NCBI GenBank assembly: GCA_015064885.1
Contig: SVRJ01000004.1
Span: 1-64,000, forward strand
From: Oscillospiraceae bacterium
Lineage (GTDB): Bacteria; Bacillota; Clostridia; Oscillospirales; CAG-272
DNA length: 64,000 nucleotides
Direction: 5' to 3'
Shown here: piece after piece, positions 1-34,490 of the stretch
Position numbering within the stretch: the first letter of the stretch is position 1
Layout of the letters: each line of letters opens with the position of its first letter
The notes under the pieces: generated by a model
What the model was told of the DNA's origin: nothing
Databases searched by the model: none
Seen by the model: only the letters and a program-made list of their open reading frames with translations
Program-made: the position numbers and the translations under genes

Positions 1-380
1 TCATATCTGTAAATCGTATGATTTACCATCAAAAAGCAATGTGCATCACTCACCCAAAATACTTCAATATCAGACGTTTCATCAGAAATGCTTTTGGGGG
101 TAATGTTCACAGTTCGGGTAATGTTATCCGTGTTGTAGTTATAATCCTTTTCACCGCCGCGGACGTATCCATCGCTTTTCAAAGTTTCCAGAAATTCATC
201 ACAGTGAAGATTGTTCGTCGCATTATAATCCGGAATAAAATAGCCTGTTTCGCTCTGTGTGTTTTTGCTTGGGTTGTTGGTTTCATTTGAAGTACTTGCC
301 TCTGTTCTTCTATCCGAAGAGCAACCCGCCAATGCCAGCATGAATGTCACCGATAAAATAAATGCTATAAGTTTTTTCAC
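1..380 (-). CDS. Lipoprotein of unknown function, truncated by the window edge
   Basis: Manual minus-strand reading: GTG start at 380, translating to MKKLIAFILSVTFMLALAGCSSDRRTEASTSNETNNPSKNTQSETGYFIPDYN...; lipobox LALAGC; RBS AAAGGAGG upstream; open to base 1. Absent from the ORF track (non-ATG start, no stop). Confidence 0.8.
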   Translation of the reverse strand, partial: MKKLIAFILSVTFMLALAGCSSDRRTEASTSNETNNPSKNTQSETGYFIPDYNATNNLHCDEFLETLKSDGYVRGGEKDYNYNTDNITRTVNITPKSISDETSDIEVFWVSDAHCFLMVNHTIYRY

Positions 381-399: not shown

Positions 400-495
400 A
401 AATTCTTATTTATCGTTCTCTTTTATCGCCTATTTCGCATTTGTATTACGGCGTTGCAAGCAACGATAGCTTCGGGCAAAGCCCATACCCCTAAA
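400..495. repeat. Dispersed ~95-bp intergenic repeat, copy A (inverted relative to copy B at 34393-34490)
   Basis: 'aaattcttatttatcgttct.ttttatcgcc..tttcgc.tttgtattacggcgttgcaagcaacgatagcttcgggcaaagcccatacccctaa' matches the reverse complement of 34393-34490 with only a few mismatches. Confidence 0.85.
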
Positions 496-648
496 GTAAC
501 ACGCATCCCAAGGCTCTCCCTTTGGACTCCCGCGATAGCGGGTGAGAGGGGAATTGTTCGCCCTCTCCGTCGGCTACGCCGCCACCTCTCCCAAAGGGAG
601 AGGCTTTTTGTTAGCCCCATTATAACACAAATTTGCTGAGAAAGCAAG

Positions 649-727
649 AGTGATATTCCGACTTCGTCGGAGTGATATTATCGCTGTCGCAATAGTGATA
701 TTGAAGCCTTACGGCTTCAGTGATATT
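649..727. repeat. Four exact AGTGATATT 9-mers alternating with short hairpins of different sequence
   Basis: AGTGATATT at 649-657, 671-679, 694-702 and 719-727; spacers ccgacttcgtcgg, atcgctgtcgcaat, gaagccttacggcttc are self-complementary or nearly so. Confidence 0.85.
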
Positions 728-781
728 CTATTCGCCCATAAACTCGCGAAGCGAATACCGCACGGTGGGGCGAATAGAACT

Positions 782-811
782 GGCGTGATACTCAGTCAAG
801 AGTATCACGCC
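782..811. terminator. Perfect 12-bp stem hairpin downstream of the solute-binding lipoprotein gene
   Basis: ggcgtgatactc-agtcaa-gagtatcacgcc; no strong T-run, so the terminator role is tentative. Confidence 0.5.
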
Positions 812-853
812 AACCGGATGCATTTTGTTTTAGTTTATTTTCCTTATACAATA

Positions 854-2539
854 TCACTCGGAATCAACGTAACCCATCTGCTTAAGCCAAGCATAGTAAG
901 CTGCGTAAGGAGAAAGGAGACCGTCTGTAGGAAGGTCATCAACCCAACGAATGTTGAGGTTACTGATCTCTGCGTCTACTCTGGATTCGTCGATAACCGC
1001 CTGAAGCTCTTCGGAGTTCTTGCAAGCGGCAAGCTTATCTGCGTACTTCTTGGAGATAGCGTTTGCCTGCTCAATAATTTCGAAGTTGGTCTCTTCAGGG
1101 TTAAGGAATACGTTGATGGAGGGGTAGAGGGCAGCGTCAACGTTCTGCTGTCTCATGTAGTCGATGTTTGCAGGATCGATTCCCTCTTCAGCGTGAGCGA
1201 TAAGGACGTTACCTGTCTTGTTTACATCCATCATGTAATCCTGGTTAAGTCTCTTGAGGATGCCTGTCTTTGCGTCTATTGTGTAATGTACGCCTTCAAT
1301 ACCGTACTGAACAATATTTCTGAGCTCAACATCTGTATTCATGAGAGAAATGACCTCCATACATCTGTTGGTTCTTGTTGTATCGTCAGCCATATTGGAG
1401 AATACACCGAACATATTCTCGTAAACGGAGTCGGGAGTCATCTTAGGATATTCTACAACGATAACCTCGTAGTCTTCTCTGTAGTCAATAACGTCTGCTT
1501 CGTTACCCTTAACAAATCCTACTGCAAATTCCTGACCTTCGCTAAGCTTATCGGAAACGTAGTTCTTATCCTTAAGCTTCTGAATGAGCTGAAGCTGTGT
1601 TCCGTAAGAGGAAGTAAGTGTTTTACCAAATCCGAGAACGGTATTCTCAGCGAGCTGAAGAGGCATAGCAGAACCGAAAACCGAGAACTGTGAAGGAACA
1701 AGCTTATAAGTCTTGAGACCGTTTTCTTCACCAAGCTCATAAGACCAGTTGTGAACGTTGATCGGCTGAGGGTTACCGAATATGGGGAGAACGGCTTTCT
1801 CATACTTAGCTATATCTTCAATGAAGGCTTCAGCGTTGGAAAGACTCGTCCAGTTTGCCATAGCTGCGGAGTACTGATACTTTTCTGCAAGCTCTTTATT
1901 AACGAGCATGTAGGTATAGTCACCTGCAATGTTATTGTTGGGAACCGCATATGTGATCTCGTTGTACTTCATAGCTGTAAGATACTCGGGGAATATGTAG
2001 TCGTTGAGTATCTTTGCACCTGTGGAAAGTGCTGTGTCAAGCTTTGCAAGATATCCGCTCTCGATGAAATGAGAATACATAGCAGCACCGCTGAGGTACA
2101 TGATATCTACCTGATTCTCTTTGATCTCGGGATACTTGAATTCGCTGTAGCCGTACTCTTCGTTTATGATAGTTTCTTCTTCAACAGCTGTTGTCTCGTC
2201 TCCGGAGGGAGCTTCGGTAACAGGCTCGTCTGTGTTGATTATCTTATCTATCATAGTTGTAAGAGCTGTGTAGTACTCTTCTTCCGAATAATATCTGAGG
2301 TCTACGCGTGTTTTATATTTTGCTTCTGTAATTGCGTTGAAAGCATCTTCGATAAGCTTCTCTGTCTCTGCGCTTACGGGTGCCTCGGAAACGAGGGTTA
2401 TAACGAGAGAGAACGGAGTTCTGTATTCAGCTGCAGTCTGCGGGTTCTCTTCCTTCTTACAAGACGTAAGAACGACAGATGAAAGCATAACAACGCACAA
2501 AATAAATGCTAAAAGCTTTTTAAGTGTATTTTTTTTCAT
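854..2539 (-). CDS. Extracellular solute-binding lipoprotein (carbohydrate ABC-type)
   Basis: 561 aa; MKKNTLKKLLAFILCVVMLSSVVLTSCKKEE signal/lipobox; SBP-like body; good RBS. Confidence 0.8.
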   Translation of the reverse strand: MKKNTLKKLLAFILCVVMLSSVVLTSCKKEENPQTAAEYRTPFSLVITLVSEAPVSAETEKLIEDAFNAITEAKYKTRVDLRYYSEEEYYTALTTMIDKIINTDEPVTEAPSGDETTAVEEETIINEEYGYSEFKYPEIKENQVDIMYLSGAAMYSHFIESGYLAKLDTALSTGAKILNDYIFPEYLTAMKYNEITYAVPNNNIAGDYTYMLVNKELAEKYQYSAAMANWTSLSNAEAFIEDIAKYEKAVLPIFGNPQPINVHNWSYELGEENGLKTYKLVPSQFSVFGSAMPLQLAENTVLGFGKTLTSSYGTQLQLIQKLKDKNYVSDKLSEGQEFAVGFVKGNEADVIDYREDYEVIVVEYPKMTPDSVYENMFGVFSNMADDTTRTNRCMEVISLMNTDVELRNIVQYGIEGVHYTIDAKTGILKRLNQDYMMDVNKTGNVLIAHAEEGIDPANIDYMRQQNVDAALYPSINVFLNPEETNFEIIEQANAISKKYADKLAACKNSEELQAVIDESRVDAEISNLNIRWVDDLPTDGLLSPYAAYYAWLKQMGYVDSE

Positions 2540-34392: not shown

Positions 34393-34490
34393 CTTAGGGG
34401 TATGGGCTTTGCCCGAAGCTATCGTTGCTTGCAACGCCGTAATACAAAGGCGAAACTGGCGATAAAACAGAACGATAAATAAGAATTTGA
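34393..34490. repeat. Dispersed ~95-bp intergenic repeat, copy B
   Basis: See copy A (400-495), inverted orientation. Confidence 0.85.

Follow-up and report, generated by a model that had tools for sequence, protein, structure and literature searches.

The window, a stretch of 64,000 nucleotides from an Oscillospiraceae bacterium (positions 1 to 64,000 of contig SVRJ01000004.1, here contig C14 of genome G000), carries near its beginning an array of short hairpins between two lipoprotein-type genes. In the direction of these genes, the locus comprises the following features:

854–2539, minus strand: recipient gene, a lipoprotein-type open reading frame of 561 aa (ORF list; without a Pfam match), the predicted terminator of which is split by the element
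815–831, minus strand: proximal terminator arm of the recipient gene, AAAACAAAATGCATCCG on the minus strand; the partner CGGATGCGTTTTGTTTTTTT (16/17 match) is at C63:776–795, beyond the second gene
781–812, minus strand: terminal hairpin H8, TGGCGTGATACTC..GAGTATCACGCCA, with its outer half forming the proximal terminal inverted repeat; the same hairpin family occurs beside arrays in many genomes
728–780, minus strand: array centre and degenerate proximal arm, with the stem CTATTCGCCC (728–737)/GGGCGAATAG (768–777)
within 728–780, minus strand: remnant hairpin TCGCGAAGCGA (744–754) and an AACT junction; relatives have a fuller arm
649–727, minus strand: distal arm of the array, with four linkers (649–657, 671–679, 694–702, 719–727) and three hairpins (658–670, 680–693, 703–718)
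619–647, minus strand: promoter pointing away from the array (-35 TTGCTT, 647–642; 17-bp spacer; -10 TATAAT, 624–619)
418–648, minus strand: module X, a dispersed promoter/leader repeat that joins the array exactly at 648 and has other copies without an array
1–380, minus strand: second lipoprotein open reading frame, a probable passenger, with a GTG start at 380; its remainder lies on contig C63, with the stop near C63:640

The four linkers are exact copies of AGTGATATT on the plus strand, separated by the palindromic spacers CCGACTTCGTCGG, ATCGCTGTCGCAAT and GAAGCCTTACGGCTTC, and the stem CTATTCGCC/GGCGAATAG (728–737/768–777) and the hairpin at 781–812 are likewise present as described in the initial annotation. 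The window contains 8 copies of the motif (0.68 expected), a number reached in 0 of 100 shuffles, and the paired motif-spacer-motif pattern is found 3+1 times in the genome, compared with 0 for the reversed control. The folding z-score of the array is about -9 on both strands. In an Rfam covariance-model search of the window the array was unmatched, the only matches being SRP RNA and two tRNAs. The array is neither a simple tandem repeat nor a CRISPR, as had been proposed from the start: its spacers are perfect hairpins common to several loci, as opposed to the unique non-palindromic spacers of CRISPR. An inverted fifth copy of the motif, at 850–858 over the stop codon of the recipient gene, had also been counted with the array. 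This copy lies beyond the element boundary, which is the 815–831 arm, and the motif is found within 110 nt upstream of the terminal hairpin in 0 of 86 other copies; its membership in the array is thus not confirmed, and it is most likely a coincidence.

Promoters similar to the one at 619–647 are found directly behind arrays at other loci. Module X holds an outward sigma-70-type promoter inside the palindrome CGGCAGAGAA..TTCTCTGCCG; in the leader that comes next, a terminator-like hairpin, CTCTCCCTTTGG, is nested. Further copies are present at 34394–34490 of the window and at no fewer than 8 other loci of the same genome (L304–L319), and the module looks like a mobile promoter/leader cassette placed in front of genes. 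The ends of contigs C14 and C63 overlap over 354 bp at 98% identity. On C63 the second lipoprotein gene is followed by its own terminator, a repeat-like end (TTTCTCCGCTAATTTTGCACGCC) and then CGGATGCGTTTTGTTTTTTT. The second lipoprotein gene is probably carried in the loop of the terminator of the first one, provided that the inferred join of C14 and C63 is correct. Another pair of candidate split arms in the window (491–508 with 816–833) was rejected, as paralogous module X copies keep this sequence while the other side changes, and the real partner is on C63.

The initial annotation had allowed for the case that no other arrays exist in the genome or its relatives, and this is excluded by copies found in the genome, in the order and in other gut Clostridia. 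Within the order, 74 of 394 genomes have the pattern, with the reversed control being zero in every case, and it is also present in many assemblies of gut Clostridia, mostly ruminant-derived. By aligning the copies on their motifs a common plan was derived: four direct linkers with three hairpins, the centre xTATTCGCC, an inverted arm of three to four linkers and short hairpins, GGCGAATAx' and, finally, H8. The centre base x and its partner x' co-vary (C-G, A-T, T-A). The 9-nt linker is uniform within one arm and different between elements, and the linkers of one copy change together from copy to copy; the variants include AGTGATATT, AGTTATATT, AGTGAAGTT, AGAGATATT, GATGAAATC, TATGATATA and AGCTGAATT, among others. 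The hairpin spacers are 7–21 bp long. In contig C73 of the window's genome (L322:1328–1500), an array with the GATGAAATC linker is flanked by end modules like those of the AGTGATATT arrays, which means that arrays of different linker families occupy interchangeable places. A related family with the linker ATATGATGT (L030:1573–1800, L031) is found beside a duplicated tRNA terminator (GAAAAAAGCACTTGCGAAAGCAA repeated), adjoining a AGTGATATT array.

Some array hairpins hold nested hairpins in their loops, e.g. CTTTTGGAATACCTCGCC..GGCGAGATATTTCCAAAAG (H7 in L428, L429, L426 and L430; distal-arm hairpins in L105 and L107), which suggests loop insertion at a smaller scale. Single linker-hairpin-linker units in two Akkermansia-labelled records (L036, L056) could be due to transfer, mis-binning or chance. 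Viral contigs with the pattern mostly look like chance pairs of distant motifs, with one true copy (L170). Several contigs start or end in the middle of an array (G000:C27:1–96, G155:C5, G290:C6, L035, L024), which suggests that the repeats interrupt short-read assemblies and conceal full units; the presence of arrays at contig ends in several draft genomes may matter for assembly and annotation.

The array sits in a characteristic place. Its orientation behind the upstream gene or tRNA is fixed in 53 of 63 cases (p = 3e-8), and within genus g45 a plain terminator occupies the site orthologous to a filled locus. The element of genome G399 is flanked by AAAAGGACGGGAAT and ATTCCCGTCCTTTT; in G398, G374, G396 and G400 this terminator encloses a loop of a few bases only. 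A second pair, G356 with a filled site and G399 in which the loop contains just an H8-like hairpin, agrees with this. An exact complement (at least 10 nt) to the 24 nt preceding H8 is present behind the array in 28 of 73 copies, compared with 4.3% for swapped partners (p = 1e-19), and a search out to 5 kb gave 18 matches scoring at least 12, where 0.25 were expected. No second terminator arm can be detected in about 60% of the copies, be it in tRNA and promoter types, through decay or at contig ends. In 20 closed cases the insert measures 324–419 bp, with a median of 360. The outer half of H8 recurs inverted at the far end of the element, which therefore has terminal inverted repeats. At some junctions a repeated dinucleotide is found, not consistently enough to define a target-site duplication. 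These data place the element in the apical loop of an intrinsic terminator, with the terminator arms flanking it, and argue strongly for a dispersed terminator-nested element. The array of the window is one representative of a mobile-type DNA element that is widespread in gut Clostridia and apparently undescribed. Literature searches for terminator-loop repeats, with coverage of subscription journals mostly missing, retrieved no description of it, and a search with the motif string gave unrelated papers only.

The location directly behind stop codons and tRNA terminators, the fixed orientation and the very stable folding of both strands would also be expected of a structural element of mRNA 3' ends, i.e. 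tandem hairpins that act as a compound terminator or exonuclease barrier in the manner of REP/BIME, are kept by selection on the RNA and do not move. The stems and loops speak against this. Stem sequences are variable and their pairing is near-perfect: among the 2774 stem pairs of 133 copies, 2709 are Watson-Crick, 18 are G-T and 14 are A-C. G-U pairs thus make up 0.6% and are no commoner than A-C on either strand, so that wobble pairing is tolerated on neither. Read from the centre outward, the loops start with G and end with A in 157 of 256 and 221 of 303 hairpins, compared with 1 and 0 on the other strand, and they are closed by C-G in 119 of 125 cases. In the GNNA loops the third base is a purine in only 35 of 64, which departs from the GNRA rule of RNA; the loops fit C(GNA)G or C(GNNA)G, the rule for DNA mini-hairpins. 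Very stable DNA mini-hairpins are known to follow the GNA/GNNA rule, GCGAAGC being exactly included (PMC4686876). The lack of G-U tolerance and the DNA-type loops disfavour a structure at the RNA level, and the folded form that matters is, as these features point to, DNA rather than RNA. Orthologous terminators without an array, as well as the terminal repeats and carried genes, also count against an immobile 3'-end element, which we consider unlikely.

The perfect Watson-Crick stems, with intermediates being very rare, could also be a mutational by-product: replication would switch templates at quasi-palindromes, thereby making and perfecting the hairpins and homogenising the linkers, with no function or mobility involved. 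For template switching, the generation and maintenance of hairpins have been documented (PMC8794818), and the process may well explain, or contribute to, the perfection of the stems. It leaves unexplained the four-plus-four architecture that is constant from family to family, the terminal repeats, the empty sites, the passenger genes and the linkage to IVP described below, and is very unlikely to be the whole explanation. The conserved 9-mers and their position between terminator and promoter would suit an array bound by protein as double-stranded DNA (a nucleoid organiser or an insulator between transcription units). The linkers, however, change together between copies, and palindromy is kept while helical phase is not, given the varying linker spacing; such an array is highly improbable.

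Among the three options offered in the initial annotation, a selfish repeat is the best supported, because of the dispersed copies, the terminal inverted repeats, the empty orthologous sites and the passenger genes. The proposed 3'-UTR position is also correct, as the element sits within the terminator of the upstream gene, and it is the structure at the RNA level that is disfavoured. In longer units, genes are present between the array and the distal repeat. The passengers are as follows:

L338: AraC with a Cass2 domain (the AraC of L473 is a close relative by sequence)
L425: chloramphenicol-phosphotransferase-like protein
L345: methyltransferase
L477: GNAT
L013: lipoprotein
L032: membrane protein

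In three units (L345, G024:C24, G155:C25) the first gene behind the array encodes a four-helix-bundle protein of the 23S_rRNA_IVP family (PF05635, IVP), which has a solved homologue, 2rld. The family is present in all 22 array genomes, compared with 12 of 23 others (p = 2e-4), and in 0 of 14 control genomes; arrays whose linker is different or interrupted are in fact present in some of the "other" genomes (L498, L502). By eye, an array is located directly upstream in 23 of 30 PF05635 loci, the usual order being tRNA or gene terminator, array, promoter and IVP, and by script an array is found at 12 of 30 IVP loci and at 0 of 10 Y1/maturase loci. With the linkers assigned by hand, linker distance correlates with IVP distance (Mantel r 0.545, reached in 0 of 5000 permutations), and the correlation falls to r 0.19 for protein pairs below 70% identity; the co-variation may reflect shared ancestry. 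Statistically, then, IVP genes lie directly behind arrays and are co-inherited with the linker. Many copies of the array, including most of the short ones, are without the IVP gene, and some hold it.

The remaining 7 of the 30 IVP loci show short tandem repeats in inverted orientation and no hairpin array. Repeats of this kind around IVP genes, e.g. GAATGAGGAATGAG/CTCATTCCTCATTC, are seen in L485, L488, L491, L504, L510, L513, L514, L515 and L516, and tandem-repeat-flanked IVP genes are also found in Monoglobus and Treponema; they may represent another repeat style within this class of elements. In named plasmids of Monoglobus, Treponema and Nostoc, inverted repeats flank the IVP gene on both sides, and in one Nostoc plasmid (L517:800–1300) the gene lies between inverted copies of the hairpin-rich repeat CTAACGTCCCGCTCCGCTAACGCAATTCGCA.

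In respect to the enzyme involved, terminal inverted repeats and short non-coding copies are also the marks of an ordinary MITE, moved by a known hairpin-aware enzyme (an IS200/IS605 Y1 transposase, a group IIC intron maturase or an IS1397-like transposase), with IVP as a mere frequent passenger. There are insertion sequences with REP palindromes as their target (PMC1525189). Among the transposase, recombinase and reverse transcriptase families, the enzyme-tracking test covered the Y1 transposase and the maturase-type domain PF08388, and neither tracks the arrays: Y1_Tnp (PF01797) is present in 6 of 19 array genomes and 7 of 19 others, and the group II maturase domain (GIIM, PF08388) in 1 of 19 and 5 of 19. 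Neither is supported as the driver. Furthermore, no transposase is found between the terminal repeats of the gene-carrying copies inspected, and a terminal-repeat search in five genomes returned gene-carrying units with no transposase. An ordinary MITE with IVP as a bystander is therefore rather improbable.

The reading that we favour, and hold to be probable, takes the array as the cis-acting core of a selfish or cassette-type DNA element that inserts into hairpin loops and has IVP as its dedicated protein. The parts of this element are evident from the copies: a terminal inverted repeat (half of H8), two inverted linker/mini-hairpin arrays, an optional promoter with IVP and/or a passenger gene with its own terminator, and a second terminal repeat. 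The initial annotation had seen the array itself correctly and missed this larger unit, i.e. the terminator arms, terminal repeats, promoter, passenger gene and IVP gene. IVP would bind the linker/GNA-hairpin units as folded DNA and would bring the element or its copy into the loops of DNA hairpins, and the short 360-bp copies would be non-autonomous derivatives. The insert may fold on itself in such a way that the split terminator still closes, and we propose that insertion would thereby be nearly harmless. In a thermodynamic test of whether folding of the insert favours terminator closure, shuffled inserts did as well as the real one. We infer both the mobility of the element and its catalytic step; no transposition event was observed, and of the Y1 transposase and group II maturase, which were checked, neither emerged as a catalytic partner. 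The association of IVP with the arrays is well supported, and its part in the mechanism is a proposal. To our knowledge, S23p/IVP is a widespread family with solved structures, no known function and no known enzymatic activity, and the arrays provide a concrete biological context for it.

More tentatively, and with somewhat less than even confidence, PF05635 proteins in general could be dedicated factors of cross-phylum elements that enter DNA hairpin loops (rRNA helices, terminators), recognise mini-hairpin arrays, are mechanistically related to the Avd/hairpin step of diversity-generating retroelements (DGRs), and shuttle cassettes into terminators without breaking them. A single testable idea, that of a protein acting on DNA hairpins, would then tie together 23S rRNA intervening sequences, terminator-nested repeats and DGR accessory proteins. 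Gene cassettes nested in the terminator of another gene would also occupy a site where insertion could be almost cost-free.

Among the closest known systems is the intervening sequence (IVS) of 23S rRNA, a precedent for the proposed role of IVP, which replaces hairpin tetraloops of the rRNA and encodes S23p of unknown function; in the Coxiella IVS, S23p is probably not expressed (PMC4990558). Common to both are an insert in place of the loop of an RNA-forming hairpin (here seen from empty sites and split arms), a long terminal inverted stem, a PF05635 gene inside, which only some of the present copies have, and short repeats, which in Coxiella are just upstream of the ORF (PMC4990558). The present copies differ in being placed behind protein genes and tRNAs, in terminators and not in a 23S rRNA helix, and in having arrays of linkers and GNA mini-hairpins, passenger genes, many copies per genome and copies without an ORF. 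A further precedent is provided by DGRs, retrohoming of which requires an Avd protein as well as a DNA hairpin with a free stem sequence and a GRNA loop (PMC3240598). With these the element shares a DNA hairpin with a free stem and a constrained G..A loop, as well as a four-helix-bundle protein of the PF05635/Avd group, PF05635 resembling Avd (PMC10053308). No reverse transcriptase or template/variable repeat was identified here, PF08388 being the sole related domain searched.

Group IIC introns also recognise DNA stem-loops as their target (PMC10190682), but no ribozyme or maturase is found here (GIIM in 1 of 19 array genomes, no Rfam match at the array) and the insertion is inside the loop. 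Integron gene cassettes are similar in being small one-gene units with structured DNA ends and cargo of GNAT, CPT-like and AraC-Cass2 type. They differ in that no attC-type sites were seen here and that the unit, equipped with a promoter and a terminator of its own, is placed within a terminator loop. MITE-like properties are found as well, namely terminal inverted repeats, dispersed copies and no transposase of its own. Finally, REP/BIME/REPIN sequences with their RAYT (Y1) proteins share with the present arrays extragenic palindromes in arrays of alternating orientation, dispersed and located 3' of genes. The conserved REP hairpin with a GTAG-type tag is not seen here, and the Y1 transposase does not follow the arrays. 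REPs conserve the hairpin and vary the linker, whereas in the arrays described here the linkers and loops are conserved and the stems are free to vary, an array logic that is the inverse of that of REP/BIME.
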